64,000 nucleotides of DNA, taken from NCBI GenBank assembly GCA_036172665.1, contig CM069877.1, positions 17,323,001 through 17,387,000 of the forward strand, given 5' to 3'. The DNA comes from Prosopocoilus inquinatus. Its lineage: Eukaryota > Arthropoda > Insecta > Coleoptera > Lucanidae. Under the pieces are notes generated by a model. The model was not told the DNA's origin. It searched no databases and saw only the letters and a program-made list of their open reading frames with translations. Numbering within the stretch: position 1 is the stretch's first letter; the number at the start of each line of letters is the position of its first letter. Positions 9,230 to 56,510 of this stretch are shown here, piece after piece. The position numbers and the translations under genes are program-made.

Positions 9230-9825
9230 CTATGCAAATTTTTATGTATCGGAAATGCATCATTAAATCAATTTAGATATGATCAGTCATAATATTTTAT
9301 TGTCAATATTGCATCATATTGGATTAGAGAGACAGGTAGTGGAATTTTTCAGAAATTATCTAACCAATAGAAGTCAAATAGTTACTCTAGAGGACGAAGT
9401 CTCGAATATACTGCCAATGACCAAAAAAGTATCTCAGGGTAGAGTGAATGGCCCTTTTATTTTCGTGATACGTATGCCTTTCTTTTTCAATAACATCGAC
9501 TGCAATTACTATCAATTTGCAAACGATACTCAATTGTACCTCTCATTTAGCCCATCTGATATACACGTGGCCGTAAGTCCAATAAATAATGATTTGACCA
9601 AAATCGTAGAAGCTGTATATTTATAGTTGTGCGATGTTTAGGTGAAAAAATGAAATCTTATTTACTAAAAATGGCGCCTTTCATGAAAAATCGCCTTCAT
9701 ATGCATGTATTTGTACTTATGATCGTTTATCGCGTAGTATTAAGGATGATTTTCGTTTTAAGAACCGCCTCAAACGATTTCTCAAAGATCATTGTTTTTA
9801 TGCTGTCCAGGAGTTCCTGTCTTAA
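9230..9825 (+). pseudogene. LINE reverse transcriptase, 3' part of ORF2
   Basis: The frame from 9279 reads ISHNILLSILHHIGLE, then FFRNYLTNRSQIV (RT motif 4 region), a decayed PQG block (KKVSQGRVNGP), and YYQFANDTQLYLSF, where the catalytic FADD is FAND. After a frame change the end of ORF2 is visible at 9717-9825: YDRLSRSIKDDFRFKNRLKR followed by a block ending QEFLS and a TAA at 9823-9825. This is the downstream half of a LINE whose upstream half probably lies at 5560-6400. The changed catalytic residue and frameshifts mark it as dead. Confidence 0.75.
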
Positions 9826-10094: not shown

Positions 10095-11338
10095 CGTGGG
10101 CAGCTGGAAAAGTTTCTGGAAACGGTATGAAAAAACGCATATGAAATTTGGTAAATAGTATCATTGTTTTTCGAAGTATTCGCCTTTGACGTCAATACAC
10201 TTTTGCATACGCTCGAACCAATTTCTAAAGCACGTTTTCCACTCTAAAGATGGTACCTTAGAAACCAGTGTCCGGAATGTTTCAACCGCTGCTTCAGCCG
10301 ACGAAAATCGCTCACCACGCATTTTATTTTTGATATTTGGGAACAAAAATAAATCATTAGGTGATAAGTCAGGTGAATAGAATATGGACAATGAGTCATT
10401 AATTCAATATTATTGTTGGACAAAAAATCAACTGTTTGACGGGCTGAGTTAGAGCTGGCGTTGTTATGATGGAGAATAATTCGTCGATTTCGATGGTTTC
10501 TTCTTATTTGATCGATTACTTCCGGCAAACAAATTGTAGTATACCAATCAGCATTCACGGTTTTTCGATCCTCTAAAGCCACGGTTGCTACATGTCCAGT
10601 TAGACCAAAGACACAAGCAATCATTTGCTTCGCAGCACTGCGTGAACGGACAACTTTTGTTGGTTTTGGTTCATTTTGAAATACCCAAACGGTAGATTGT
10701 TGTTTACTTTCTGGCTCGAACGAATAGATCCACGTTTCGTCACCAGTAATGTTGTTATAAACTAATTTTGAACGACCTCCAGTGAATTTCTTGAGCATTT
10801 CTTCGCACCATTTGAGACGACCCTGTTTTTGCGCTTCTGTTAAATTATGTGGAATCCAACGACTGCAAAGCTTTCCTTCGTTCAAATGACCATACAATAT
10901 CTGGTGTATTGCTTTCATGTCAATGCGTAAGGATGCTTGAATCTCATGGTATGTTGCATGTCGATCTCGCTGAAGCATTTCACACACAACATCTACATTA
11001 GTGGCAACAACAAATGTTGGTGGACGACCTTCACGAAATTCATCACTGAAAGAGGTACGTCCACGCTAGAATTCGGCAAACCAATTACAAACACTGCTCT
11101 TTGATGTGCTTCATCTCCAAAAGCCAAAAAATCATGGCACGAAAATTTTCACGTGAGATTTCCATGTTTACACAAAATTACTTTTTTTCGAATGCTGTAC
11201 AAACAAAACTAGTTCACTTGGATAGGAACTGTTAATAGAATTATAGGGGAAAGACGTCAAATTTTTCAAAAATGACAGTTGATAAACGCTAACAATTCTA
11301 GACCTACTAGATTCCAGAAAATTTTCCAGCAGCCCACG
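10095..11338 (-). mobile_element. mariner transposon, full length but defective
   Basis: A 1244-bp element with 27-29-bp terminal inverted repeats: left CGTGGGCAGCTGGAAAAG..., right the inverted near-copy ending CAGCCCACG. TA dinucleotides flank both ends (10093-10094 and 11339-11340), the standard mariner target duplication. It carries a single transposase gene on the minus strand (10161-11165). It sits within the LINE 3' region, so it inserted later than the LINE. Confidence 0.9.
10161..11165 (-). pseudogene. mariner transposase (DD34D type), inactivated
   Basis: Cut-and-paste transposase acting on the element's own TIRs in the nucleus. The start is ATG at 11165 (MEISRENFRAMIF), and the end is EYFEKQ plus TGA at 10161-10163, so full length is preserved at about 345 codons. 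The first catalytic Asp survives in TGDETWIYSF. The second is lost: the usual HHDNASSH reads HHNNASSN. The third block is split by a frameshift near 10380-10400, where one frame has PYSIHLT and the other YSPDLSPNDLFLFP. The N-terminal 60 residues also contain stops and shifts. The internal 247-codon frame (10244-10987) is the longest uninterrupted part. Catalytically dead by sequence. Confidence 0.9.
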
Positions 11339-13741: not shown

Positions 13742-13745
13742 GCTA

Positions 13746-14748
13746 TGTAAACAGGCGAAATTTCTAGCATGAATTATTTTCCTTCGAATATCATGTAGCG
13801 TATTAACTTTATTTTTTTTTATTTCTGCATAAAGAAATTTGAGTAGCAGAATCAAAATTTTATTAAACTCCAAATGAGCATGCAGTCATAACATCCTTTC
13901 TAGATAACGGTTTATTTAGCTGACTGGCATGAGAAAATCCGCGTGATTGAGCGTGTGAAACGCGGGGGAGTTCTTAAAACAATCCTCCCGGCGAAAAGTT
14001 GAAGGAAGGTAATTACGGCTTAAATCAGTCGTCCTTCGGCCCTAAATTAAGTCAGACGTGGTTTTGGTCAAAATTGTGAATGTAAATGTAACTTCGGAAA
14101 ATTAAGAGTTTTGGTGGGTGAAAAGTGAGGTGGTAGAAGCCCCCGAAAGGAGAGCGAGCCCCTGTCATCAACGTTCCGGAAAATAAAAGAAAGAGGATCT
14201 CTATTGCAGCGTCTCCCTGCTTAACAGGTAGGAAAATGATAGTTGTTCAGTGTTAATTCGTACCATTTGGTTTGGAGGAAAATCCTCAAAGTAGTTCCGA
14301 CATTTTTTCCCTTTATTCTTTAATTGTGATTTGTCTTGTTTTTATTTGTAAATTTAAGGTGTCGAATATATTCCTTTTTCACACCTTCAAGGGACTTTTA
14401 TTTCATTTTGGCGTCGTAATCAATTAATCATTTCTTTTTTTTTAATTTTTTTTATTAAAATTGTATATAAAACTCGTACAGTTCTAGAGTCAAGAACTAA
14501 CGCTTCCGACTTTAATGCCAAGAGTAAAGAGAGCCCTATTAATTACGTGAGGGTAGAAATTTCAATTCTTTGTTTGTATCATATATATTCTTTATTTTGG
14601 GCCCGATGCCCCGTGAGCCATTAATGAATGCATCGGTGGTGGCAGCGTAATAATCATTAATAGAAATTTTCTTTAATTTTTTGTATTAAAAATTTAATCC
14701 CTCATTTAATATAACTCGGCTCCTTTACCCAGAAAGGCCGCGCCTACA
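13746..14748 (+). repeat. 5' LTR
   Basis: Begins TGTAAACAGGCGAAAT and ends GGCCGCGCCTACA. By eye I found no difference from the 3' LTR, and the lengths are equal. A TATA-like element lies at 14464-14470. Confidence 0.97.
14464..14470 (+). promoter_or_regulatory. TATA-like element in the 5' LTR
   Basis: TATATAA, about 280 bp before the LTR end, is the best candidate core promoter for genomic RNA. The equivalent in the 3' LTR is at 25960-25966. No transcription start was mapped. Confidence 0.4.
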
Positions 14749-14751
14749 AAA

Positions 14752-14769
14752 TGGTGCCAGCGGTGTGGG
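14752..14769 (+). other. Primer binding site, tRNA-Leu-like
   Basis: TGGTGCCAGCGGTGTGGG lies 3 nt after the LTR. It starts with the TGG complementary to the CCA end of a tRNA. The sequence is close to the 3' end of leucine tRNAs as I recall them; the tRNA assignment is an inference. Confidence 0.7.
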
Positions 14770-15839
14770 ATTAATTATTTGCTTATAAAATATTGGCAGC
14801 GCTGTGTGAAATTTCTGTTAATTAAAAGTAATTTGTATTTTTTTTTTGTTTTCCGTTCGAAATTCATTCAAATGGACCTAGAATGAGTACGAGTATTTTG
14901 TGTGTTTCTTTTCCAGGTAGTGTATTAAATAAACTACGGTAAAAACTAAATAAAGCCCTCATCATAATAATTGTTTTGAGAAACCCCTATAGCGGAAGGC
15001 AAACGCGTAATCGCGGAGTGTAACGTGCGATCGTAGACGTACACAGTACGATTCAGACAGCGCCATCTTGGTAGCTGCCTAACGTCGCGACGGCGACCGG
15101 AACGCACGGGAATTCGACCGACGCTCGTATGCAGCAGGCGTCGCATCTAAGGCGCGTACAAACCAAACGACGTATAATAGGAGTTAGATTAAAAGTAAAT
15201 TAGAAATTCAAATTGTTTTTCGTTAATTTAAATATTTTTTTTTCTATACACAAAGTATTTTCCAATCATTTTTTTTTCTCTTGTAAACATTTTTTTTAAA
15301 TTCACCTTAATAATTTTTTTAAATGTAATAACATAACTTGATTAATTCATAAAGTACAGTCTCCTTTAATTTTTTTTTTTTTAACTGTACGCCAACGCTA
15401 TATAAATAACTCAAACCACAACGTTGTTTTATTATTTATTGCGAACGTTGAAGTTTTCGTGTTTTCTTGCGCGATTGAATTATTTTCGCTGACGGAAGAT
15501 TGCCTTTTCGCCTTGTTTTTTTTAAATTAATTAATTAATTTTTTTTTTCTCATTTACTAAATGGGGTATTCATAAAGTCAATTAAATTCTTTTGTTGTTC
15601 TCTCTCATATAGTTTGTTTTCATTTTTTTAGAATTACTTATAAAAAGTTAGTTTTCTTTTTGTTACTACTTTCATTTAAATTCACTTTCAATTAAAGGGC
15701 TAATTTAAACTAAACTTATAAAATAAACGTGAAATTAGTGAGTTTAGTGAAATAATTAATTAATCAGGTTAAAGGTGAACCTGGAAAATCAGTTATTTTT
15801 ATTTTATTTTATTTTTAACAAAGAGTGAGGTATTTAAAA
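14770..15839 (+). other. Untranslated leader of the retrotransposon
   Basis: About 1.07 kb without a supported ORF. A GC-rich patch at 14990-15160 stands out in an otherwise AT-rich leader and is a reasonable place for a packaging or dimerisation structure. Long T-runs follow at 15230-15560. Confidence 0.5.
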
Positions 15840-17240
15840 ATGGCAGAAGTAGAATACGATTTTGTGGACGCAATTGATAATACTTTAGAAGCAAATATTC
15901 TCCCCGTGGATGATGTTAACAATGCAATAACACAACCACCCTCAATGAATTTAGCAAGTTTGCGAACGATTGGGCAAACCCTTGTTGGCCTCCCCGAATT
16001 TTCTGGAAAACCTGGTGAAAATATAAAAGAATTTTTCCTGAAATTACGTCAACGAGCGGACATAGATGCGTGGACGGAGCAACAAACCCTAGCTGTCGCA
16101 AGATATCAGCTAAAAGGAGAAGCTTTCCAATACTTGGAATTGGAATCACATTTATTATCATCGAATGTGACATACGCTGATTTTAAAGCTGCCTTGATAA
16201 AACGATACGAAAAGAAGGTTTTACCGGGTGAAGCTTATTTGAAACTCCAACGATGCACGCAAGCCGCTCGCGAAAGGGTTGAAGATTTTTCCATCAGAGT
16301 AAAGAGAGCAGGCAAGAAACTTCTAAAAGAAAACCTGGCCCTGGTGGAGTCAAATCAGCCAGCTGAACGAGACGCCGTGATAAAAAGACATCAGCGAGAC
16401 CTGGCTGAACAATTCAAAAGAGGATTGGACCCGGAATTACTGAAGATGATCATCCTGGATCTGAACCGGAATCCTCGTCGGTCGTTTGAAGAAGTGATCG
16501 AACTTGCCCAACAAGCAGAGACGAGTGGGAGAATGTTAAAACAGATGAACAGATTGAACAACCTCTACGTCACAAATCGGAACATGAACCTCTCGGAAGA
16601 AGATGATGAAGAAGAGTACGGTTACGAGGAGATTCGAAGCTCTCAAAGGAACTATCCACCTCAATACCACGAGAACACTCGTTGGGTCAAGAAACCAACC
16701 GGCTACTCAGAACATTGGAACAATAGATTTCCTACTGGGGAAAATTTCGCCGAAACACAAAACGAAAGACCCAGGAAAGTAACATTCGCAAGGGACTATG
16801 CTCAGGTCACGACGAGTAAAGATAGTTTCCCTCTAAATCATCAATCGGGTACTAAGTACCAGAAAGGATATCCAAGGGCGTACGGAGAAACTCCAACCCC
16901 GCAATATCCTAGAACTTATCCGAGCATAAACGAAGGAAATTCAGCCTCGCAGTATTCCAGAACATATCCAAGGAAATATGGGGAAAATCAAACACGGAAC
17001 TTTCGTGAGAAAAGACCTGACGCTTACCCGAGGAACGACCAGCAACACCAAAGGAATTTTAGGAAACAAGTGAAATGTTTCAGGTGTTCGAGGATGGGAC
17101 ATTATGCATCCGAATGTAAAGTATCGGTTAAACAACCGGGGATGTTAAGAGTAGGGAGCCAGACTAATAATACGAGGTCTTTAAACTACAGAGGTCCTTT
17201 GCAGAACCCCGAGGTCAAAGGACCTTACCGAAGAAATTAA
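15840..17240 (+). CDS. gag: Gag polyprotein
   Basis: Structural protein that assembles the cytoplasmic particle and binds genomic RNA. I start it at the ATG at 15840 (MAEVEYDF), giving 466 residues; five upstream in-frame codons begin with GTG and are unlikely to be used. The N-terminal half (about residues 45-210) resembles the retrotransposon capsid domain, with a charged helical series around LPEFSGKP, WTEQQTLAVARYQLKG and YADFKAALIKRYEKK. Residues 273-276 are PPQY, a PPxY motif of the kind that recruits Nedd4-family ligases. Residues about 330-400 are Tyr/Pro/Arg-rich with imperfect repeats (YPRAYGE, YPRTYP, YPRKYGE). A single zinc knuckle CX2CX4HX4C is complete at C413, C416, H421, C426. 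The last 70 nt overlap pol in the -1 frame. Confidence 0.95.
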   Translation: MAEVEYDFVDAIDNTLEANILPVDDVNNAITQPPSMNLASLRTIGQTLVGLPEFSGKPGENIKEFFLKLRQRADIDAWTEQQTLAVARYQLKGEAFQYLELESHLLSSNVTYADFKAALIKRYEKKVLPGEAYLKLQRCTQAARERVEDFSIRVKRAGKKLLKENLALVESNQPAERDAVIKRHQRDLAEQFKRGLDPELLKMIILDLNRNPRRSFEEVIELAQQAETSGRMLKQMNRLNNLYVTNRNMNLSEEDDEEEYGYEEIRSSQRNYPPQYHENTRWVKKPTGYSEHWNNRFPTGENFAETQNERPRKVTFARDYAQVTTSKDSFPLNHQSGTKYQKGYPRAYGETPTPQYPRTYPSINEGNSASQYSRTYPRKYGENQTRNFREKRPDAYPRNDQQHQRNFRKQVKCFRCSRMGHYASECKVSVKQPGMLRVGSQTNNTRSLNYRGPLQNPEVKGPYRRN

Positions 17241-20200
17241 AAATTACGCTCCCACACGCATATACGGTCGAAGAGGAAGGAAATAAATGTATCATCCTAC
17301 CGAAAGTATTTGGTCACACAGCTACAATGCTAGTGGATACTGGAGCCTCTTTGACCATATTAAAAGAAGAGTTTGTTCGGAGGATCGGGGCCCGAACTAA
17401 ACCAGAACCACACGTTGTTTTCCGCGGAATTTCAGGAGACGAAGAGCCATGTTTGGGATCAATTGTGTTACCACTCCGGATAGGAAACAGGAACTACGAT
17501 ACCAAGTGCATGATATGCTCGAACTCAGTAAACCTGAATATGGATGGCCTTCTTGGTAGAGATTTTCTTCGAGCCAACAGCGCATCAGTCGACTATGGGG
17601 AAAATGTCCTCAGACTCGGAAAGGAAAAGGTGAAGCTCTTAAGTTATGATGATCTGAACGATCAGGATTATGACGATGCTTACTCTCTACGTCAAGAAAA
17701 TGGCTGGGAATCCAACCGCAGAAGAAAGCAGGCTAACTTCCGAGAACCGGACCGAAACGGATTTACAAAATCCAAGAGATCAACAGGATCTGGAAACCAG
17801 AATAAAGGAATGAAGCCGAAAAGCAACGGAATAACCGAACTGGGCAGGTGTGAGGAAAGACGCAATCAAACATGGTCTCACACCAGACGAAATACAATTC
17901 CGAGAAGAAATACGGAAATAGCAGAGCCCAGTTATAGCGGTGTAGTGCGGAACAGAAAAGGAAGATCCTTGAAGAGGGAAAATTTTGAACTAGTGAAGGA
18001 AAGTAGAGAACCGCGTAGTAAGGAAATACGCGAAGTCGGCGGAAAAATGGAAAAGAAGAATGCCGAAATAAATGAAGTCTGTGGCGATTTGTTTTCAGCT
18101 CCAGAAGAATACTCTTTGGCCCATTGTGTAGCAAAAGATCTCCACATGAGCAAAGGGATCGCGGTAGAATTCAAACAAAGATTTGGACGCGTGGAAGCTT
18201 TAAAGAAACAAAACACTCAAGTTGGCGGAGTAACAGTCTTGAGGGACAACTTGCTCCGAGGAAAGCACAGATTCATTTACTACCTTGTGACGAAAAATCA
18301 AAGTCAAGATAAACCTACCTATGAATCCTTAGAAAAGGCAATAGTAAGTCTACGGGATCACTGTCTACAGCACAGAATCCAAAAGTTAGCAATGCCAAGG
18401 ATAGGATGCGGGTTGGACGGACTTAATTGGGAAGAAGTCATAAGGATTATAAGAAGAGTGTTTGCCGAAACCGGAATAAGCATCTTAGTTTATGCTCTGG
18501 TAATAGATAATGGTCGGCAAGAAAACACTAGAAACAGGCACGTCAAGGAAGGTACAAATGAAGTACAGATCGAAAGTGCTGAAAGGAAGCAAATGACACA
18601 CCACCGTAAAGAAGTGGAAGAAGTACATAGAAGTGGAGGTAAAGATAGAAAAGTAATAAAGAAGGAGACTCTAGAGGAAGATCGCAAGTCGTCACCGTCA
18701 CCACCAATGATGGATGATGACCAGGATGAAGCAGTTGGTGGCTGCCAAGTCCGAATTAAAAATGCGACCGACATTCCTCCAAGATGTCAAATGTTGTGTA
18801 CTGCTGTGCAGGGAATGATCAACCCTGGACAGGATTTAATGCTGGAACCCGCTCAGTTACTCATCCATGGACTTATAGTAGCGCGTACTGTTTCCAAGGC
18901 CGGACGTGAAGTACCCGTTTGCATAATGAATATCACCAATGAAAGGCTGAGAATACCGAAGAACACGGTAGTAGCCTACGGTGAGAGAGTAGATGTGTCT
19001 GAAAACCCAGGAAGGGAAAGGAAAAAAAGAATCCCCATAAATAAGGTAGACCTGAGGAAAGCCGGAATCCTAGAAAAATTGGAAATTGAACATCTGAGTA
19101 ATGAAGAGAAAAATAAATTAATAAAACTAGTTCAAGAATACGGCGACATTTTTATGGGAAAAAATGTGAAATTAGGATGCACGCACGAGGTGAAGCACAA
19201 GATTATTACAGAAGATGTGCCACCTATAACCAAAGCGCCCTACAGAGTGCCATACAGTCAGCGGAAGGAGCTCCAGAACCAGATCGGAGAAATGATAGAA
19301 CAAGGAGTGATTAAAGAGTCCTCCTCTCCTTGGAGTGCGCCGGTAATTATGGTAAAGAAGAAAGCCGCAGAAGGTGAGAATAAAATTCGCGTTTGTATAG
19401 ACTACAGGGCACTGAATTCCATCACCAAGCGAGACTATTTCCCATTACCAAACCTCCAGGAGACTATCGATCAACTAGGGAATGCAAAGTTCTTTTCCAC
19501 GTTGGATCTGGCAAGCGGATATTGGCAAGTGGAAGTGGACCCGAAGGATAGGGAGAAAACAGGATTTTCAACTCCCGATGGTCACTATGAATGCCTAAGA
19601 ATGCCGTTCGGACTGGCAAATGCTCCAAGCACCTTTCAAAGATTGATGTATTCAGTGATGTCGGGATTGACCGGGGACAAATGTTTGGTATACCTCGACG
19701 ACATCATCGTGTTTAGCAAAACACTAAATGAGCATTTGGAAAGGTTGACCGAAGTGTTCGAAAGGCTCAGGAAAGCCAATTTAAAGTTGAAGCCGTCAAA
19801 GTGTAGGTTTTTAGCCAGAGAAGCTAAATATCTGGGACATGTTATATCTCAACAGGGAGTGAAACCGGACCCCGAGAAATTAAGTGTTGTGAAAAATTAC
19901 CCACGACCAAGAACCGTGAAGGACATCAGAGCTTTCTTAGGATTAGTGGGATTTTATAGGAAATTTATCCCAGAGTTTTCACACAAGGCAATCCCCTTAA
20001 CATCGCTCACGAAGAAGGATGTTGAGTTAGTATGGACACAGGAACAAGAGGACGCGTTTGAATACCTAAAAGAAAGGCTTTGCAGTCCACCAGTCCTGAA
20101 ATACCCTAATTTTGAGGAACCGTTCATACTGGCTACTGATGCTTCTGGAACAGCTATCGGCGCTGTGCTAAGTCAAAAGGAAGGTAAATATGAAAGACCT

Positions 20201-22921
20201 ATAGCTTATGCCAGCCGACAACTCAACAAAGCCGAACGAAATTACGACGTGACTCAACAGGAGTGCTTAGCAGTTGTTTGGGCTATTAAACATTTCAGAT
20301 GTTACCTCTACGGGACGAAATTTACCATCTACACGGATCACAGACCGTTAAAATGGTTGTTCTCATTAAAAGACCCAACATCGAGATTAGCCCGATGGGC
20401 TTTGCTCTTGTCGGAATACAACTTTACTATAGAGTACAAGCCAGGAACGAAAAACAACAACGCTGATGCCATGAGTCGGTTGCCAAAGGTTGGAGAGCAA
20501 CAACAAAAACAGGAATTTCAAGGAAATCAGGATCATGAAGTAAGACCAGAGAAGAAAAGACGAATGACAAACCTCCATATATTAAATGATGCCTTAAAAA
20601 AGGAGCAAGATCGAAAGGTACGACGAGAAATAGAAGTGGTGGATGAAATCACCGAGGTTGTATACGAAGAAAGAAGGAAAGCTATAGTAACTTCGCCTAA
20701 AGAACTTGGGAAGAGAGAAGTTAATAATGATCAAAAGAAAATCCTGAAGAAAAGTAAGGGAAGTGTGAACCCTAAATGGGAAGCTAGAAACGTAACAGTT
20801 CCAATTGATGTTCAAGTCAAAATCAAGAAACACGACGAAGATCTCAGCGATAGTGAACCAGGAGGTCGTAAATACGAGAGAACCTTCTCGCAATTGGGTC
20901 GAGAAAAGACGGAAGGATATAAAGAATATCAAGAATGGGCACGAAAAACCAGAGAACAAGATCGAAGAAAAAAACCGATCAGAATAAGCCAGCCTCAGGA
21001 AATAGTACAACAAGAAGTTGAAACGCATCCAATTCTGAAAAGGAGTCGAGTTGATGTTGAAGAAACACCCATACCATACCTGAACAAAGAAGCCATAGGA
21101 AAAGAACAACGGCAAGATACAGTGTTGCAGAAACTACGTGGTCAAATACAAGAACAGCAAATGGAGGATCCGTATTACATCGACGAGGACGGAGTTATAT
21201 TCCGAGTTAGACGAGGTGGGGAAAGAAATGACAGAATTGTCATTCCAAAGAAATTGGTAAAACAGTGCATTCACGATTATCATGACCTACCATACGCAGG
21301 ACATCAAGGCGTACCAAAGACCTTAAGACTCCTACAAGAGCGGATGTACTGGAAAAACATGGAAGATGACGTCAAGGATTATGTCCAAAAATGTCATTCC
21401 TGTAATGCACGAAAAACACCTACCAACAGGAGACCAGCCCCATTGCAACCGTTTTGCGAAGTGACGTACCCGTTCGAATTAACAGCTATGGATATAGTGG
21501 GACCGCTAGTTACTACAGATCAAGGTAACAAATACGTATTAACATTCCAAGACTACTTTACGAAGTATCCGGAAGCAATACCTTTGCCGGACCAGAAAGC
21601 GGACACTGTAGCTCGAGCATTTGTAGAGAATATCGTCGCTAGACACGGAGTGCCAAGAAAGTTGTTGACAGACCAAGGAACCAACTTCGTATCGGAACTT
21701 ATGAAGAACGTGTGTAAAATCCTAGGAATTAAAAAGATCCAGACAACTCCATACCACCCCCAGAGTAATGGAATGATAGAACGAACACATCGAGTTCTGA
21801 AAGATATGCTGTCTCACTACGTTACGAAATCGCAACGGGATTGGGATGAGTGGATTCCTTATGTGTTAATGGCCTACAGAGCCAGCATCCATTCTTCTAT
21901 TGGAGAGACACCATATTTTCTGCTTCATGGAAGGGACATGAGACTGCCTAATGACGACGATCTTACTTCTACCAGACAACGATACGACTACAGTGAAAAC
22001 TACGCTGCAGAATTGGTAGCGAGGTTGAACTCAACCTTTGAAGTCGTACGAGAAAAACTCAAGAAATCAGCAGGACAGCGGGAGAAACAGTACAATAAAA
22101 AGACAAAACCCACCGAATTCAAACTCGGGGATAAAGTCTACTTGTACAACCCAGCGGTAAAACCCGGTCTGTCGAGAAAACTGAGTAAACAGTGGGAAGG
22201 ACCGTATCGAATAATCGAAAGGTTAGGTCCTGTAACGTACAAGATCGCCAGAATAGGGAAGGACGAAGAACAAACAGTCCATGTCAATAGGTTTAAATGG
22301 TATGAAGATGGAGACGAGATTCGAAATGTACCCCAACCTCAAGGACATAAAGAGGATGCACCAGATCAAGAAGATTCAGACAATCCAGAGTCAAAGAGGG
22401 AGTCTGAGGAAGACTTAATGGTTCCCGGAAACTTTGAAGAGTTGGAGAGAGCATATTTTGGTGGAGTACCAGCGCCGTTTCCGCAGGAAAATGTAAACGC
22501 TCCAGAAGAAGTGGAACCATGGATTGGAACACCGGTGTCAATGAGGGACGAACCCCAAGCACCTCGTGTAGTAAACTTCAATCCTAATGTACTGAACGAA
22601 ATTCCCGAAGACTACCAAATACAAAATGAAGAACCACCCGAATTGGTGGAAGAAGATAGTTTCGAAGAGGAGGATGAAACGGAGAACGAAGATTCGGCAG
22701 AAGTTCAGGAAAATCAAGGACAAACCCCAGAAAGCGATAATGTCAAAGGAACAGCTGGAAGTAGCGGACATCGCTATGGTACAAGAAGTAAAGGCCCTGC
22801 AGAATCACAGCCATGGGTCATGCCGAAAACATTAATGGTAAATAGCGGATACCCTGAAGTAAAGAAAAGCTTCAAACCGCACATAAATTATCAAAATTTA
22901 GATGAAATCACTTTGGCATAA
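17171..22921 (+). CDS. pol: Pol polyprotein: protease, macrodomain, RT, RNase H, integrase
   Basis: Made by -1 frameshifting. Its frame opens at 17171; the first internal ATG is 17327 (residue 1 in this numbering; 1864 residues to the stop). Aspartic protease: LVDTGAS at 2-8, GLLGRDFL near 74-81. Basic linker, then macrodomain at about 250-391. Connection region (IPPRCQ to VVAYGE) at about 473-553. Reverse transcriptase from about 637, with Asp727 in LDLASGYWQ and YLDD at 789-792. RNase H: Asp938 in ATDASG, then a TDHRPLKW block. A Lys/Arg/Glu-rich linker of roughly 200 residues follows. Integrase has an HHCC finger starting at H1316, ending KCHSC; catalytic Asp1389, Asp1449 and Glu1485 (D-D-35-E); and a GPY/F module at G1625-Y1627. 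No chromodomain. The last 220 residues are acidic and unassigned. Confidence 0.96.
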   Translation, partial: YEVFKLQRSFAEPRGQRTLPKKLKITLPHAYTVEEEGNKCIILPKVFGHTATMLVDTGASLTILKEEFVRRIGARTKPEPHVVFRGISGDEEPCLGSIVLPLRIGNRNYDTKCMICSNSVNLNMDGLLGRDFLRANSASVDYGENVLRLGKEKVKLLSYDDLNDQDYDDAYSLRQENGWESNRRRKQANFREPDRNGFTKSKRSTGSGNQNKGMKPKSNGITELGRCEERRNQTWSHTRRNTIPRRNTEIAEPSYSGVVRNRKGRSLKRENFELVKESREPRSKEIREVGGKMEKKNAEINEVCGDLFSAPEEYSLAHCVAKDLHMSKGIAVEFKQRFGRVEALKKQNTQVGGVTVLRDNLLRGKHRFIYYLVTKNQSQDKPTYESLEKAIVSLRDHCLQHRIQKLAMPRIGCGLDGLNWEEVIRIIRRVFAETGISILVYALVIDNGRQENTRNRHVKEGTNEVQIESAERKQMTHHRKEVEEVHRSGGKDRKVIKKETLEEDRKSSPSPPMMDDDQDEAVGGCQVRIKNATDIPPRCQMLCTAVQGMINPGQDLMLEPAQLLIHGLIVARTVSKAGREVPVCIMNITNERLRIPKNTVVAYGERVDVSENPGRERKKRIPINKVDLRKAGILEKLEIEHLSNEEKNKLIKLVQEYGDIFMGKNVKLGCTHEVKHKIITEDVPPITKAPYRVPYSQRKELQNQIGEMIEQGVIKESSSPWSAPVIMVKKKAAEGENKIRVCIDYRALNSITKRDYFPLPNLQETIDQLGNAKFFSTLDLASGYWQVEVDPKDREKTGFSTPDGHYECLRMPFGLANAPSTFQRLMYSVMSGLTGDKCLVYLDDIIVFSKTLNEHLERLTEVFERLRKANLKLKPSKCRFLAREAKYLGHVISQQGVKPDPEKLSVVKNYPRPRTVKDIRAFLGLVGFYRKFIPEFSHKAIPLTSLTKKDVELVWTQEQEDAFEYLKERLCSPPVLKYPNFEEPFILATDASGTAIGAVLSQKEGKYERPIAYASRQLNKAERNYDVTQQECLAVVWAIKHFRCYLYGTKFTIYTDHRPLKWLFSLKDPTSRLARWALLLSEYNFTIEYKPGTKNNNADAMSRLPKVGEQQQKQEFQGNQDHEVRPEKKRRMTNLHILNDALKKEQDRKVRREIEVVDEITEVVYEERRKAIVTSPKELGKREVNNDQKKILKKSKGSVNPKWEARNVTVPIDVQVKIKKHDEDLSDSEPGGRKYERTFSQLGREKTEGYKEYQEWARKTREQDRRKKPIRISQPQEIVQQEVETHPILKRSRVDVEETPIPYLNKEAIGKEQRQDTVLQKLRGQIQEQQMEDPYYIDEDGVIFRVRRGGERNDRIVIPKKLVKQCIHDYHDLPYAGHQGVPKTLRLLQERMYWKNMEDDVKDYVQKCHSCNARKTPTNRRPAPLQPFCEVTYPFELTAMDIVGPLVTTDQGNKYVLTFQDYFTKYPEAIPLPDQKADTVARAFVENIVARHGVPRKLLTDQGTNFVSELMKNVCKILGIKKIQTTPYHPQSNGMIERTHRVLKDMLSHYVTKSQRDWDEWIPYVLMAYRASIHSSIGETPYFLLHGRDMRLPNDDDLTSTRQRYDYSENYAAELVARLNSTFEVVREKLKKSAGQREKQYNKKTKPTEFKLGDKVYLYNPAVKPGLSRKLSKQWEGPYRIIERLGPVTYKIARIGKDEEQTVHVNRFKWYEDGDEIRNVPQPQGHKEDAPDQEDSDNPESKRESEEDLMVPGNFEELERAYFGGVPAPFPQENVNAPEEVEPWIGTPVSMRDEPQAPRVVNFNPNVLNEIPEDYQIQNEEPPELVEEDSFEEEDETENEDSAEVQENQGQTPESDNVKGTAGSSGHRYGTRSKGPAESQPWVMPKTLMVNSGYPEVKKSFKPHINYQNLDEITLA
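17180..17225 (+). promoter_or_regulatory. -1 ribosomal frameshift signal, gag to pol
   Basis: The heptamer TTTAAAC at 17180-17186 lies in the gag frame as T TTA AAC, exactly the register required for -1 slippage. After a 5-nt spacer, AGGTCCTTT (17192-17200) pairs perfectly over 9 bp with AAAGGACCT (17217-17225) around a 16-nt loop. The pol frame is open from 17171, so slippage here yields a Gag-Pol fusion. I did not find a clear pseudoknot partner for the loop. Confidence 0.88.
18074..18499 (+). other. TARG1/OARD1-like macrodomain within Pol
   Basis: Pol residues about 250-391. Sequence features of the TARG1 (OARD1) branch of macrodomains are all in order: GDLF (253-256), LAHCVAKD, MSKGIAVEFKQRFG, YYLVTK with Lys323, KPTYESL, and MPRIGCGLDGLNWE with Asp364, ending ILVYAL. 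From established knowledge, TARG1 removes ADP-ribose from acidic residues and uses a Lys and an Asp (K84 and D125 in the human enzyme, 41 residues apart). Here Lys323 and Asp364 are also 41 apart, so hydrolase activity is plausible. The domain lies between protease and RT, flanked by basic low-complexity linkers, consistent with an insertion that spares neighbouring domains. Function in the element is unknown; countering host PARP activity is my inference. Confidence 0.9.
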
Positions 22922-23837
22922 TGTGTAAATGTTTTTTTTTATTTTATTTCATTTTCACCCTTTTTATCTCTTATCCAACCCCTACAGTCCTTTATCTAGG
23001 AGAATGATAGACACAACAAAAATGTTTTGATTTGTTATGCAAAATTTCAAAATTTTGAGAAGAACTATGTGTTCTTGATTCATTTGGGTGTTCGATTAAA
23101 TATTTAAGATGAAGATCAATGGTTTAGTCTAAAAATTTATCAAAATTTAAGGGACGATTGATTCTTTTTGTATTTAAACATTTTTTTACAGTTCATTTTG
23201 TTATTAAAAGGGAGTTTAGCTTCCTAAAGTTAATTGTAACGGAGAATTCCATTATTTATTTAATTTTGTTTTGGGTTTTCAAAAATTTAAAAAGGGATTA
23301 GAAATTCTTTTTCTAGTGATGTCTTACTTTTCTTTGTGTCACTTTTCCGTAATGGATAATAATTCAGTTGGGATACATAAAAATAAAATAACGGGGAGCT
23401 CCATTACTAAAGTTTGTTTCTTAAGTGAAATCTTAGAATTTGAGGAGGAAATATTTTGATCTATCTTATTTCATTATTTTATTTGAGTAATGACTGTACT
23501 TTCGGTTTGTCAAAAGTTTACACGTACCAGAAATGGATTGGTAATTTTGAATAGATCCGTTTATTTTAAAACTTGGCCGACAAAGTACATTCTTCCTTTC
23601 TTAAGCGTGGCTTGAAAGAGTAAGAAAGGATGTCAGGCCCCTTGAGTAGTATGTAGAATAGAAATATGAAGAATGTTAGGGAATTATGTGATCCCATTTA
23701 AAAAAAAAAAAAAACCTCAAAGAAGTTCTTGTAAACGTATTTATAGGGCGAAAGAAAGAATAAGAGTACAGAAGCATTTACCGCGAGCAAAAATTTACTT
23801 TATCAACGAGCACGCATTAGGCAGACGAAGAAAATAA
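22922..23837 (+). other. Non-coding spacer between pol and the third ORF
   Basis: About 916 bp, AT-rich, with only short ORFs (such as 62 codons at 23271) and an A-run at 23701-23715. The third ORF is therefore too far away for reinitiation and probably needs a spliced or separate mRNA. I could not choose a splice acceptor with confidence. Confidence 0.5.
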
Positions 23838-24416
23838 ATGGTTGATAATTCGTATGTTAAAGGAGAAGCCAGAGACACCATGCAGAAAACAGAAGACGCT
23901 TGCGCACGGATTCTTCTCACTCGCCATCAAGTAAAAGAAGTTGTAGGAAACGGAGGTGTCCGTATCGCAGCCATAAGAAACAAGTCGAAAGCTAGAATCT
24001 ACATTTGTTCTCAAATGGAGGAAGAAGAACTTCGACTCCTACAGATCAAGGGAACCGTACTACAAGTAGAACGGGCAGTGAAAAGCCTCTTGAAGGAGCT
24101 ATATAAACACTCATTGGAGACCCTGTACGAAATGGACGAGAGTGGTGTCCGAATCCGGTCTAGAGTGTCCCTACGGCTCCTGCTCCTTGAAGAAATAACA
24201 AAGCGATGGGAAGGACCCCCATGTGTCATCAAACCCCTTCTGAAAAGTAGAGAAGTATCGTGGAAGGAAGAAGGTGTCTTCCCAAATTCTACGGAACAGG
24301 CAATTTATATTGCCGGTGACTGGGCAAAAGTTGCTGAGGCCATCCGACAAACCCTCGCGACTCACCGTGTATGCCGGCGCTTTGTCAAAGACCCAGTACT
24401 CCTTTACGTCCCATAA
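23838..24416 (+). CDS. KH-domain protein encoded in the env position (ORF3)
   Basis: 192 residues from the ATG at 23838 (MVDNSYVKG). Residues about 23-90 fit a type I KH RNA-binding domain: a first strand (ARILLT), a helix (HQVKEVV), the invariant loop as G37-N38-G39-G40 within VVGNGGVRI (the family's IGxxGxxI), a variable loop (MEEEEL), the strand LLQIKGT, and a C-terminal helix (LQVERAVKSLLKEL). The segment 155-173 (AIYIAGDWAKVAEAIRQTL) looks like the last strand and helix of a second KH unit, but its GxxG loop is not visible. There is no signal peptide or membrane segment, so this is not an envelope protein. Expected role: binding element or host RNA. Reads as intact, with 3' sequence of the element following. 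Domain call by eye. Confidence 0.82.
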   Translation: MVDNSYVKGEARDTMQKTEDACARILLTRHQVKEVVGNGGVRIAAIRNKSKARIYICSQMEEEELRLLQIKGTVLQVERAVKSLLKELYKHSLETLYEMDESGVRIRSRVSLRLLLLEEITKRWEGPPCVIKPLLKSREVSWKEEGVFPNSTEQAIYIAGDWAKVAEAIRQTLATHRVCRRFVKDPVLLYVP

Positions 24417-25228
24417 AAAGAATTAGCCAGATGCACTAAGAACAAACATCGAACCTGATGTTCGCCTGAAGCATGTCGTACGAAATTATAATTACATATT
24501 TTCTTATGTCAATTTTTTTTTGTTTATTTTTCTTTCTTTGTTATATTCATTAACCGAAATTTTGATTGTACTATAATAGAGATACTATTATTCTTTCCTC
24601 GCATAAACTTTAGTTTAAATACCTTTTATTTCACTGTTTTTATTATATTGTAATCTAAGAATCTGATACTCGTTTTTTTTGTTATATGTAATCTTTGACA
24701 TGGAGACAACCTGACATGAGGCAACCTCCACACACAACCATGAGCCAGCCAGTAAGCACCAAAAGGTCCTGAGTCGTTAGTTACGTGATCCGGAAGAGTA
24801 GGCGGCTGTTGAACCGACCCACCTCAACATGGACACAAACTATCTCATTCGAACCGATCAAGACGGTGTTGCTGAAAGGCACCGCCCTGCACAAAGGAAA
24901 CCAGACCTTCATCACATATCTAAGGGAAGGACTGACCTAGTCATCCAGCAGGATATTTGTAGAAGAAAGGACCTGAGAACGTGGTGCCCGGCCGAATAAG
25001 CTAACATTATCGAAAAGAAGCTGAAGTCTCGAACAATTGGTGAAAAGTTATACCATGAATTATTGTGTTGTGTCCTATGCCATTTTGCCTCATGCTATTT
25101 TTTATATTTGTTCTACGTTAACTGATTTAAAACTTTTGTAATTAATGTATTTTTATGATTGTAAGGGACCCTGTAACAGAGACCTCTGCTAATTCAAAAG
25201 ATATTGACCTCGGGTCAACACTTTTACT
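24417..25228 (+). other. 3' untranslated region of the retrotransposon
   Basis: About 810 bp with no supported ORF. A GC-richer stretch at 24710-25020 might be the remains of another coding segment or an RNA structure; I could not assign it. Confidence 0.45.
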
Positions 25229-25241
25229 AAGGGGGAAGGGA
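25229..25241 (+). other. Polypurine tract
   Basis: AAGGGGGAAGGGA immediately before the 3' LTR, the primer for plus-strand DNA synthesis. Confidence 0.92.
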
Positions 25242-26244
25242 TGTAAACAGGCGAAATTTCTAGCATGAATTATTTTCCTTCGAATATCATGTAGCGTATT
25301 AACTTTATTTTTTTTTATTTCTGCATAAAGAAATTTGAGTAGCAGAATCAAAATTTTATTAAACTCCAAATGAGCATGCAGTCATAACATCCTTTCTAGA
25401 TAACGGTTTATTTAGCTGACTGGCATGAGAAAATCCGCGTGATTGAGCGTGTGAAACGCGGGGGAGTTCTTAAAACAATCCTCCCGGCGAAAAGTTGAAG
25501 GAAGGTAATTACGGCTTAAATCAGTCGTCCTTCGGCCCTAAATTAAGTCAGACGTGGTTTTGGTCAAAATTGTGAATGTAAATGTAACTTCGGAAAATTA
25601 AGAGTTTTGGTGGGTGAAAAGTGAGGTGGTAGAAGCCCCCGAAAGGAGAGCGAGCCCCTGTCATCAACGTTCCGGAAAATAAAAGAAAGAGGATCTCTAT
25701 TGCAGCGTCTCCCTGCTTAACAGGTAGGAAAATGATAGTTGTTCAGTGTTAATTCGTACCATTTGGTTTGGAGGAAAATCCTCAAAGTAGTTCCGACATT
25801 TTTTCCCTTTATTCTTTAATTGTGATTTGTCTTGTTTTTATTTGTAAATTTAAGGTGTCGAATATATTCCTTTTTCACACCTTCAAGGGACTTTTATTTC
25901 ATTTTGGCGTCGTAATCAATTAATCATTTCTTTTTTTTTAATTTTTTTTATTAAAATTGTATATAAAACTCGTACAGTTCTAGAGTCAAGAACTAACGCT
26001 TCCGACTTTAATGCCAAGAGTAAAGAGAGCCCTATTAATTACGTGAGGGTAGAAATTTCAATTCTTTGTTTGTATCATATATATTCTTTATTTTGGGCCC
26101 GATGCCCCGTGAGCCATTAATGAATGCATCGGTGGTGGCAGCGTAATAATCATTAATAGAAATTTTCTTTAATTTTTTGTATTAAAAATTTAATCCCTCA
26201 TTTAATATAACTCGGCTCCTTTACCCAGAAAGGCCGCGCCTACA
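25242..26244 (+). repeat. 3' LTR
   Basis: 1003 bp, starts TGTAAACAGGCG and ends GCGCCTACA, same length and apparently the same sequence as the 5' LTR. GCTA follows, completing the target duplication. Confidence 0.97.
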
Positions 26245-26535
26245 GCTAGTTTTATTTAAAACAGTTCAAGCAAAAGCGGTTGCTTCGTTTTATCCATCAG
26301 ACCATTTTGGGTGAACCCTCTTAATAAGAAATGAAACCATAAACGGACAAATAAGTGCTTTAATCCTAGAATATAGAAGAAGAAGAAGAATAGAATTACT
26401 TGATTTTTTCATTGTGTTCAATTCTGTTATATAAATATTTTGGAGACTATTTATACTTTATTTGTGACTATTTGCACATATACGAACCTTTTTAAGCGCC
26501 TAAAATAGTTTTTTTTTAGTGCCTAAACTTCCGCA

Positions 26536-54017: not shown

Positions 54018-54339
54018 TTAGCTTCCGTATTTCTCGAAGAAGAGTTCCCACTCGAGTGTGTTCTCGCAGGACCAGCGCTCGAATTCGCGCCCTTCCATGT
54101 AGATCGTACACCAGGTGCCAGTGTGGTCCTTAAGAATGCCATTGTGGCCCGTGCAGATGCACTCGGGAGGTTGGGGAATGTTGCAGGCCATCACGTGGTA
54201 CACAAACTTGCTAACACACTGATATCCACCGGGGACTTTTTCCGGTTCGTATTCTTTCCAGCAAAAGCAATTCCTGGCCGGCTTGGCAGACGCGATGACC
54301 CACGATGCGGTAAACATCATCACCAAAGTTCGCCATGCT
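54018..54339 (-). CDS. Cysteine-rich small secreted protein, last exon
   Basis: The only convincing host coding sequence here. The minus-strand frame ends at TAA (54018-54020), followed by AATAAA. At the 5' side a splice acceptor (ATACTTTGCAG) ends at 54340 and the frame is open from there, with no good in-frame ATG context, so the start codon is probably in an upstream exon. The N-terminal stretch WRTLVMMFTASWVIASA is a hydrophobic signal-peptide core with a plausible cleavage site after ASA. The mature part has eight Cys, beginning NCFCWKEYEP and including CVSKFVYHVMAC, PPECICTGHNG and GTWCTIY, suggesting four disulfides. GC content and codon choice differ from the AT-rich surroundings. I do not recognise the family; an immune, salivary or cuticular role would be guesswork. 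Confidence 0.7.
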
Positions 54340-54722
54340 CTGCAAAGTATATTCTGTTATTTTATCAGTTATTTTGCTTTTTGACTAAAAAAAAAGTTGT
54401 ACGAATACAAGAATCACACAATAGCATGCTGCTTTATCAATTTAGGAGCTAAAGTTGTATTTTTTCATGGACAACCCTAAAGGTTGAACACGCCAAAACT
54501 TGGACACGAATAAGAACGTACTAGCCCAAAAAATACGACGCCCATTTCTCTTTTATTTTCACAAGATGTATCTAGCAACCATATGAATAAAATTTGACAG
54601 TTACTATTTTTCACTGTTCATTAGTTGTCATCATGAAGAGCTGTCAACTTCTACAACGCCCAAGTTATTTTGCAAGAACATATCAAATATCCTTTATTGA
54701 GTTATAGAGCTGTGAAAAAAAA

Positions 54723-56510
54723 TTGAAGTTTTCTCAATCAACTGTCTGCTCCGTTTTAAAAAAGTATGGAGAACGTTTATCAGTGGAAAGAAAGCCAGGG
54801 GAAAGTGGGGGTAAGCAAGGAGTGAAGGATAAAAAGAAGGAGAAACGAGCCCTAAGACTGTTTGCTTCTAATCCAAAGCTGTCATCGCGCGATGTTGCCA
54901 AAAAGATAGAAATGTCGCAATGGTATGTGCAAAAAGTCAAACGCAGAGCTGGTTTGAAAAGTCACAAGGCCCAAGCTGCCCCTGATCGCGACGCTAAACA
55001 AAATTTAACTGGGAAACGTCGAGCTAGAAAATTGTATGAAAATTTTCTCACACGATACGAATGCGTTGTGATGGATGACGAAACGTACGTTAAAGCAGCC
55101 TTCAAACAAATACCAGGGCAAGAGTTCTGCGCAAGTAAATATCGTAAAGATGCGCCAGAAGATTGTAAACTGAAAAAAAGATCAAAATTTTCCAAAAAAT
55201 TTTTAGTTTGGCAAGCCATTTGCAACTGTGGAAAAAGAAGTCGGTCATTCATCACTACTGGGACAATAAATCAAGAAATTTATAAAAGTGAATGCTTACA
55301 AAAACCACTTTTGCCCTTTTTAAAACAACATAACGTACAGCCATTGTTTTGGCCCCACTTAGCTAGCTGTCACTATTCCAAATCTGTAGAAGAGTGGTAC
55401 GAACAGAATAATGTTACTGTACACGCTTAAAAATTATACAGTGAGAATCTTGTAACGCTGCACATAGACGAAAATTACGTGATCAGATAATACATTTCTG
55501 AATCATGTAAAATTGCACATAAAGGTTTTAACATTACGTTGCTATAGTTACTATTCAATTCTCAATGCTGAATCTTTTAAAAACTGCACATAGGAAGTAT
55601 TAAGGAAGGGAATAATTGATCTATCCTGAAATTTTGCGGTAAATAACGCAAAGACCTCTGTCAATGAACTTCATCTGAAAATAATGTGCACCTACATTTT
55701 TACTTTTTCGGTGGTTGTATGCATTTTACAATAAATTAAGAGAACAATTTAATTCAATCTGACAATTCAAAATCAGTAGTGTCATTACTCATTACTAACA
55801 ACGCACGGTAACCATGGCGAAGAAAACAAATTTGGAAATAATAATGTAATAAAGCTTCCATTGATGAATACTATGTGCAGTCTTATAAGATTCTCAGTGT
55901 ATGTTAATTTCAACTATAATTTTTTTGCTGTATTGTTTATGCTATCGTAACTTCCTTTTTAGTCAGAAAACTTGACGCCTATAGTTATAAAAACCGTTTT
56001 AGAAATTTAATTGTGCTTGTGACAAATAAGACAAATTAGTTCTAGGTGTTTAGTTGCTTAAAATAAAAATTTAGTTATTTCTGCCTTTTTATAAGCTGTC
56101 ATTACTTTTTTCATTGTTAAGAAATATCAAAATTAGTTTTCGCAACTTTTATTTTGTTGCTGAAAACAAAAATCATCACGAATATTACACTGTTTCCACA
56201 ACTAACACACCATCAGCTGGGACTATTTTCACTAAAAAATTAGTTGTGACATCAAAAATTTAGTTAGGATTTTTAAGCGTGTAGTTCCCAAAGATTGCAA
56301 TCCCCCGAACAGTCCTGAACTTAGGCCAATTGAGGAATATTGGTCCGTTGTAAAGGGTATATTGAAGAAAAAGGATGGGTAAGCAAAAGTAGTGACAGAT
56401 TTGCAAAAATAGTGGTCTTGGGCGACGAAACAGATTAGCGACGAGAACGTGCAGCACCTTATGAGTCGAATCCGACGTAAAATGCGTTCTATGGTATGTG
56501 GTCTTAAGTT
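54723..56510 (+). pseudogene. Tc1/mariner-type transposase, interrupted and mutated
   Basis: The first 235 codons (54723-55430) run from an HTH region (FSQSTVCSVLKKYGERL, then LSSRDVAKKIEMSQWYV) into the core: CVVMDDETYVKAAFKQIPGQ with the first Asp, KKFLVWQAICNCGKRS, TTGTINQEIYKSECLQK, and LFWPHLASCHYS, where the usual WPDLASCHYS Asp is His. At 55422 the 860-bp element begins. Coding resumes at 56284 with VPKDCNPPNSPELRPIEEYW, which carries the third acid. Removing the insertion and one TA puts both parts in one frame. Stops follow at about 56381 and in the C-terminal part (SDENVQHLMSRIRRK). An upstream frameshift separates the likely start near 54632. The lost Asp alone should abolish activity. 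Confidence 0.88.
55422..56281. mobile_element. CACGCTTAAAAAT TIR element, long copy
   Basis: 860 bp with 13-bp TIRs (CACGCTTAAAAAT and inverse) and a TA duplication at 55420-55421 and 56282-56283. The right half matches the 382-bp copy at 41340-41721 in reverse. The left half is specific to this copy and has three spaced TGCACATA-like motifs. Non-coding. Confidence 0.9.

Follow-up and report, generated by a model that had tools for sequence, protein, structure and literature searches.

A young Ty3/gypsy element of the beetle Prosopocoilus inquinatus with a TARG1-type macrodomain in Pol

Among the domains that ride in retroviral Gag-Pol is dUTPase, a captured cellular enzyme that acts on nucleotides, and ADP-ribose macrodomains are well known from parasitic genomes. 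Those of corona-, toga- and iridoviruses are classed as MacroD-type (PMC7729036), and TARG1-like homologues are also described from viral genomes (PMC4245714). Among retroelements, epsilon-like endogenous retroviruses (ERVs) of ray-finned fish are reported to carry additional open reading frames (ORFs) with a macro domain (Basta et al. 2009, as cited in PMC4977317). Human TARG1 (OARD1 or C6orf130; structures 4j5q, 4j5r and 4j5s) is a stand-alone cellular terminal ADP-ribose protein glycohydrolase. Here we describe a TARG1-type domain that lies, in contrast, inside the Pol of a retroelement. It was found in a stretch of 64,000 nucleotides from Prosopocoilus inquinatus (Coleoptera, Lucanidae; assembly GCA_036172665.1, contig CM069877.1, positions 17,323,001 to 17,387,000 of the forward strand), which we call the window and number from its first letter. 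The domain belongs to a young, complete long terminal repeat (LTR) retrotransposon of the Ty3/gypsy type that has apparently gained it between the protease and the reverse transcriptase (RT). All results on this element come from one locus, one copy and one assembly.

A TARG1-type domain inside Ty3/gypsy Pol is new within the literature searched: we found no macrodomain in a gypsy pol, judging by titles and the starts of abstracts in searches that left subscription journals mostly outside. The preliminary description of this DNA, made from its letters alone, had supposed that no gypsy lineage with such a domain had been described. That view held within these searches, but the fish ERVs provide a precedent for retroelements in general (PMC4977317). 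Like retroviral dUTPase, the beetle domain would represent a captured cellular nucleotide-acting enzyme in Gag-Pol, although enzyme and chemistry differ. It also resembles the viral macrodomains in being an ADP-ribose macrodomain in a parasitic genome, while differing from the MacroD-type domains of the three virus groups in its TARG1 type and its place in a retroelement Pol.

The macrodomain spans pol residues 242-391 (18050..18499, plus strand). Pfam Macro matched it at E 9e-10 (39 bits; cut-off 22), and a phmmer search of the PDB returned human TARG1 (4j5q) at 2e-39 and 138 bits over the 147 residues of pol 245-391, with DarG as the next class at 42 bits. TARG1 was the closest PDB match in both sequence and fold, ahead of DarG, ALC1 and other classes. 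The sequence blocks picked out in the preliminary description do lie between protease and RT, within pol 253-364: GDLF occupies 253-256, LAHC begins at 264, and the last residues of YYLVTK and GCGLD are K323 and D364. The catalytic pair K323 and D364 is, as had been stated, 41 residues apart, the same spacing as in human TARG1. Moreover, the TARG1 pattern published in PMC6397177, TKx(30,35)Px[IL]GxGxD, matches pol 322-364 and none of 20000 shuffled pol proteins. The coordinates first given for the domain, 18074-18499, proved right overall, the N-terminal side being off by about 8 residues.

We aligned the pol macrodomain with 76 bacterial, phage and IMG/VR relatives picked from loci L006-L154 of our collection. 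The pattern was present in 64 of the 77 rows, and the catalytic Lys and Asp were kept in every row; because the relatives had been fetched by patterns around either the loop MGAGIA or PRIGCGLD, the fetch itself accounts in part for the invariant Asp, while the Lys was in no pattern. The AlphaFold2 model built on this alignment (predicted local distance difference test, pLDDT, 90.9) deviates by 1.0-1.1 angstrom from the TARG1-ADP-ribose complex 4j5s. Overall, the searches and the predicted fold support a TARG1-branch macrodomain inside a Ty3/gypsy pol with catalytic Lys and Asp retained, and the assignment made in the preliminary description was borne out by profile search, pattern and fold check. 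Another solved macrodomain class, such as DarG, was ruled out by the score gaps in the sequence and fold searches. An assembly artefact or a chance motif was likewise ruled out, within the limits of a single assembly: the segment lies in an uninterrupted frame, the 147-residue match reaches E 2e-39, and the LTRs and target duplication match.

To place the domain relative to a gypsy pol that has none, we used L155, the single other gypsy pol from an RT-pattern scan of viral contigs, whose RT is 49% identical over 233 residues to that of the element and which has neither a macrodomain match nor the TARG1 pattern. The distance from the protease end to the protease-RT connector (approximately 18746..19000, plus strand, placed by motif position, with its extent and its likeness to the L155 connector judged by eye) is 45 residues in L155 and 406 in the element, 361 longer, whereas the distance from connector to RT is nearly equal (216 and 210 residues); the motifs that served as reference points were picked by eye, and a single comparator makes this a thin comparison. 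These lengths fit a domain with charged linkers inserted between protease and connector. Pieces of gag, protease, linker, RT, RNase H, integrase and a KH-domain ORF described below matched none of 154 loci (L001-L154: 5 phage records, 69 bacterial or archaeal genome contigs and 80 viral contigs) at E 1e-3, and single-sequence scans of the viral contigs with the macrodomain and with the RT gave no match. Absence from the 154 loci says little, because the genome contigs are those of bacteria and archaea and a scan of the viral contigs with one RT pattern yielded L155 alone.

The rest of the coding region, all on the plus strand, is that of a Ty3/gypsy element. The gag ORF, open from 15819, runs from its first ATG over 15840..17240; its CCHC zinc knuckle exceeds the Pfam cut-off, and its Ty3-capsid and Retrotrans_gag matches fall under theirs. 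The pol ORF is intact from stop to stop (17171..22921), with its first ATG at 17327. Along it, Pfam identified an aspartic protease (17327..17572; PF13975 4e-09, PF13650 4.9e-09), whose N-terminal part lies upstream of 17327, RT and RNase H (19355..20419; RVT_1 2.6e-38, RT_RNaseH 3.5e-45), the H2C2 and core parts of integrase (21242..21760; 2.4e-21 and 2.6e-14) and the integrase p58 C-terminal domain (22202..22297; 7.5e-11). This order, protease-RT-RNase H-integrase, is of the Ty3/gypsy type.

The nearest solved structure to the RT is Ty3 RT 4ol8 (E 4.4e-98, 332 bits), and the retroviral-type chains listed reached at most 144 bits, with no epsilonretrovirus among them. The element thus shares with Ty3/gypsy elements (Metaviridae) its Gag, Pol order, LTRs and RT match, and differs from them in the macrodomain with its linkers between protease and RT and in a third ORF with a KH domain. 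An element of the fish ERV kind, likewise a retroelement with a macro domain, would be expected to have a retrovirus-type RT; the RT here is nearer to Ty3 than to the retroviral-type chains listed. Chromodomains of chromoviruses sit at the integrase C-terminus; in the element, a Pfam scan of 22202-22918 returned no chromodomain and only Integrase_p58_C (E up to 0.01).

The gag and pol ORFs overlap in a -1 relation. Within the overlap, at 17180..17186 (plus strand), the gag frame contains the slippery heptamer T TTA AAC, one of two in-frame heptamers of that kind in gag, and 4 nt downstream a putative frameshift-stimulating hairpin (17191..17226, plus strand) would form an 11-bp stem with a 3-bp stem on top. 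Its folding energy of -17.9 kcal/mol (z -4.94) was equalled in 0 of 200 shuffles. Heptamer and hairpin make a strong candidate for a -1 frameshift signal, and given the -1 overlap together with these two elements, Pol, macrodomain included, would most simply be made as a Gag-Pol fusion.

Errantiviruses have env downstream of pol. In the beetle element, this place is occupied by the third ORF (23838..24416, plus strand), which encodes 192 amino acids with a KH RNA-binding domain (KH_1 9.3e-12) and is the only ORF of at least 110 amino acids between pol and the 3' LTR; there was accordingly no intact env downstream of pol among ORFs of that size, a broken env not having been sought. The nearest solved structures to the KH ORF are PCBP2 and hnRNP K; its single-sequence model was poor (pLDDT 41) and was not used. 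The KH ORF is a second unusual gene of the same element, in env position, and our literature search found no matching paper on a KH-domain third ORF.

The complete element extends over 13746-26244 (12,499 bp) and shows the hallmarks of a Ty3/gypsy LTR element. Its 5' LTR (13746..14748) and 3' LTR (25242..26244), both on the plus strand, begin with TG and end with CA, and are bounded by 4-bp GCTA copies of the target-site duplication (13742..13745 and 26245..26248). A putative primer-binding site starting with TGG lies 3 nt past the 5' LTR (14752..14769, plus strand), and a polypurine tract abuts the 3' LTR (25229..25241, plus strand). Since the two LTRs are identical across 1003 bp, the insertion is recent. 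Elsewhere in the window, blastn at E 1e-5 found no further copy of the LTR, macrodomain, RT or KH pieces.

TARG1-like matches were recovered from 79 phage records (best identity 43.5%) and 50 plasmid records (best 39.9%). In a tree of 78 sequences and 143 columns, the pol macrodomain grouped with L075 (99/77), human TARG1 came next (94/80), and one Bacteroidetes row joined outside this group (92/88); the bootstrap was unsettled, no starred set contained the pol macrodomain, and no arthropod TARG1 was included. A Tyr ahead of the catalytic loop is common to the pol macrodomain, L075 and human TARG1, and Asn stands there in 73 of the 76 aligned relatives. Together, the grouping and the shared Tyr suggest that the source was most likely the eukaryote-type TARG1 branch, reached directly or via a virus. 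Capture inside gypsy Pol, as claimed in the preliminary description, is therefore upheld only as an insertion relative to the L155 pol; the host origin claimed with it was not borne out by a tree that places the domain with human TARG1 and L075 without starred support. In one survey, flies and mosquitoes were the source of every insect TARG1 sequence (PMC6397177). The TARG1-like protein of L075 (512-1033 on a 78.8-kb IMG/VR contig) stands alone and shares 49% identity with the gypsy domain; the ORFs around it look, by eye, like those of a eukaryote or of a large virus of eukaryotes.

The domain could instead have been taken from an arthropod or other virus that already had a TARG1-like macrodomain, a question of origin that is compatible with any function. 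We consider this rather unlikely. Its tree partner L075 comes from a viral collection and stands ahead of human TARG1, yet human TARG1 is nearer to the pol macrodomain by both path and identity, and the missing starred set, the unsettled bootstrap and the lack of an arthropod TARG1 count against reading much into the order. In a BFVD fold search, whose hits are fold matches with no macrodomain class assigned, the best of the 50 rows listed of 1059 was Kadipiro virus VP8 (49%), as close as human TARG1; viral and retroelement copies could, however, derive separately from hosts. Also among these best 50 of 1059 were proteins from a CRESS virus and from thrips flavi-like, negev-like and virga-like viruses, two from iridescent viruses (44% and 38%) and many from phages; none was named as a retroelement, and many were unnamed. 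The occurrence of such folds at 30-49% identity across Kadipiro, thrips flavi-like, negev-like, CRESS and iridescent viruses, among the best 50 of 1059, hints that viruses may have gained macrodomains repeatedly.

As to function, the anti-PARP purpose suggested in the preliminary description is here likewise a proposal. Viral macrodomains are described as countering antiviral PARPs (PMC7729036), and on this analogy a counter-restriction role appears most likely. Frameshifting by -1 on the T TTA AAC heptamer would yield Gag-Pol, and the macrodomain would then be produced in the same amount as Pol and enter the particle alongside RT and integrase, judging from how such elements work. Lys323 would act as the nucleophile and Asp364 would resolve the lysyl-ADP-ribose intermediate, as in human TARG1, in which Lys84 is described as attacking C1'' of the distal ribose and Asp125 as resolving the lysyl intermediate (PMC6397177). 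Human TARG1 is reported to remove mono-ADP-ribose from acidic residues and from the terminal phosphates of DNA or RNA (PMC8053099). The element's domain might similarly erase mono-ADP-ribose from Gag, Pol, cDNA or RNA ends, or nearby host proteins, and this erasure would blunt PARP-dependent restriction of the element prior to integration. We regard this full account, an eraser in Gag-Pol that blunts PARP-dependent restriction, as somewhat more probable than its negation.

Several observations weigh against it. Mapping by alignment the ADP-ribose contact residues listed in PMC6397177, we found 12 of 14 kept, including D20, T83, K84 and D125; the two altered are S35, now Ala as in 8 of the 76 relatives, and L47, now Glu. 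Loop 1 reads MSKG where human TARG1 has MGAG: human G41 corresponds to S275 in pol, although all 76 aligned relatives and human TARG1 have Gly there and the fetch pattern permitted Ser at this position. The pol domain also has a 5-residue insertion ahead of the catalytic Lys relative to human TARG1. The catalytic competence put forward in the preliminary description therefore stays a proposal: the Lys/Asp pair is kept, but two contacts and the loop glycine differ. Few viral TARG1-like homologues are described as retaining all essential residues, and TARG1 itself is described as unevenly spread among invertebrates: flies have it and the honey bee has lost it (PMC4245714). As for the host pathway, no more than three PARPs were named in a study of Aedes (PMC10223269), and in Drosophila the damage response is reported to use mainly serine-linked ADP-ribose, which the fly's TARG orthologues left in place (PMC10238386). 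Our literature search found no PARP-based restriction of gypsy, with a search phrase blind to the bracketed spelling, and the domain is known from a single copy.

Mainly because of the departures at the loop-1 glycine and the contact residues, we kept as possible a binding-only macrodomain, which would read mono- or poly-ADP-ribose with little catalysis and steer the integration complex to PARylated, that is damaged or active, chromatin. The domain sits in Pol with integrase, and human TARG1 is reported to gather at damage sites in a poly(ADP-ribose)-dependent manner (PMC8053099). The Lys-Asp pair is nevertheless intact within its TK and GxGxD motifs, which a pure binder would not need, and we judge such a reader quite unlikely. 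Such steering would resemble the chromodomain's targeting role in chromoviruses, but the macrodomain lies far from the integrase C-terminus, which speaks against it. The domain may also be a passive or very recent passenger, captured in frame from a TARG1 source and tolerated without benefit. One copy was examined, and with identical LTRs its intactness shows only a young insertion; yet the Pol frame is uninterrupted over a gap that exceeds the one in L155 by 361 residues, and we hold this explanation to be improbable. The A content at fourfold sites of the macrodomain (38%, 52 sites) resembles that of protease (37%), RT (38%) and integrase (41%), which fits long residence, but weakly. Composition was rejected as a residence clock, since gag has 30% A and the KH ORF and the window overall have 33% each. 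The eraser in Gag-Pol remains the explanation we prefer. That there is an arthropod gypsy lineage with an active TARG1-type hydrolase in Gag-Pol, undoing host ADP-ribosylation of the particle or of nucleic-acid ends, we propose tentatively, as something short of an even chance.

Several other features were recorded in the window. A tandem repeat lies at 1866-2583 (312-bp unit, 2.3 copies, 99% alike). Just below the Pfam cut-offs are an RT fragment at 9267-9623 (plus strand) and a Transposase_1 (mariner-type) fragment at 10247-11065 (minus strand). At 54021-54356 (minus strand), a short cysteine-rich open frame of 112 amino acids may belong, as an exon, to a host gene whose product is secreted, and at 54708-55430 (plus strand) a 240-amino-acid open frame has, by eye, the look of a Tc1-type transposase; neither had a Pfam match at 0.01.

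Most of what is known of ADP-ribosylation as an antiviral mark comes from the PARPs of vertebrates and the macrodomains of viruses. The beetle element would add a retroelement to the parasites with macrodomains near TARG1, such as Kadipiro virus (a fold match, 49%), and offers a compact system for testing ADP-ribosylation as a restriction of retrotransposons. If the proposed role is true, ADP-ribosylation would be such a restriction, perhaps in invertebrates, and LTR elements, like RNA viruses, would have evolved erasers against PARP-type ADP-ribosylation.
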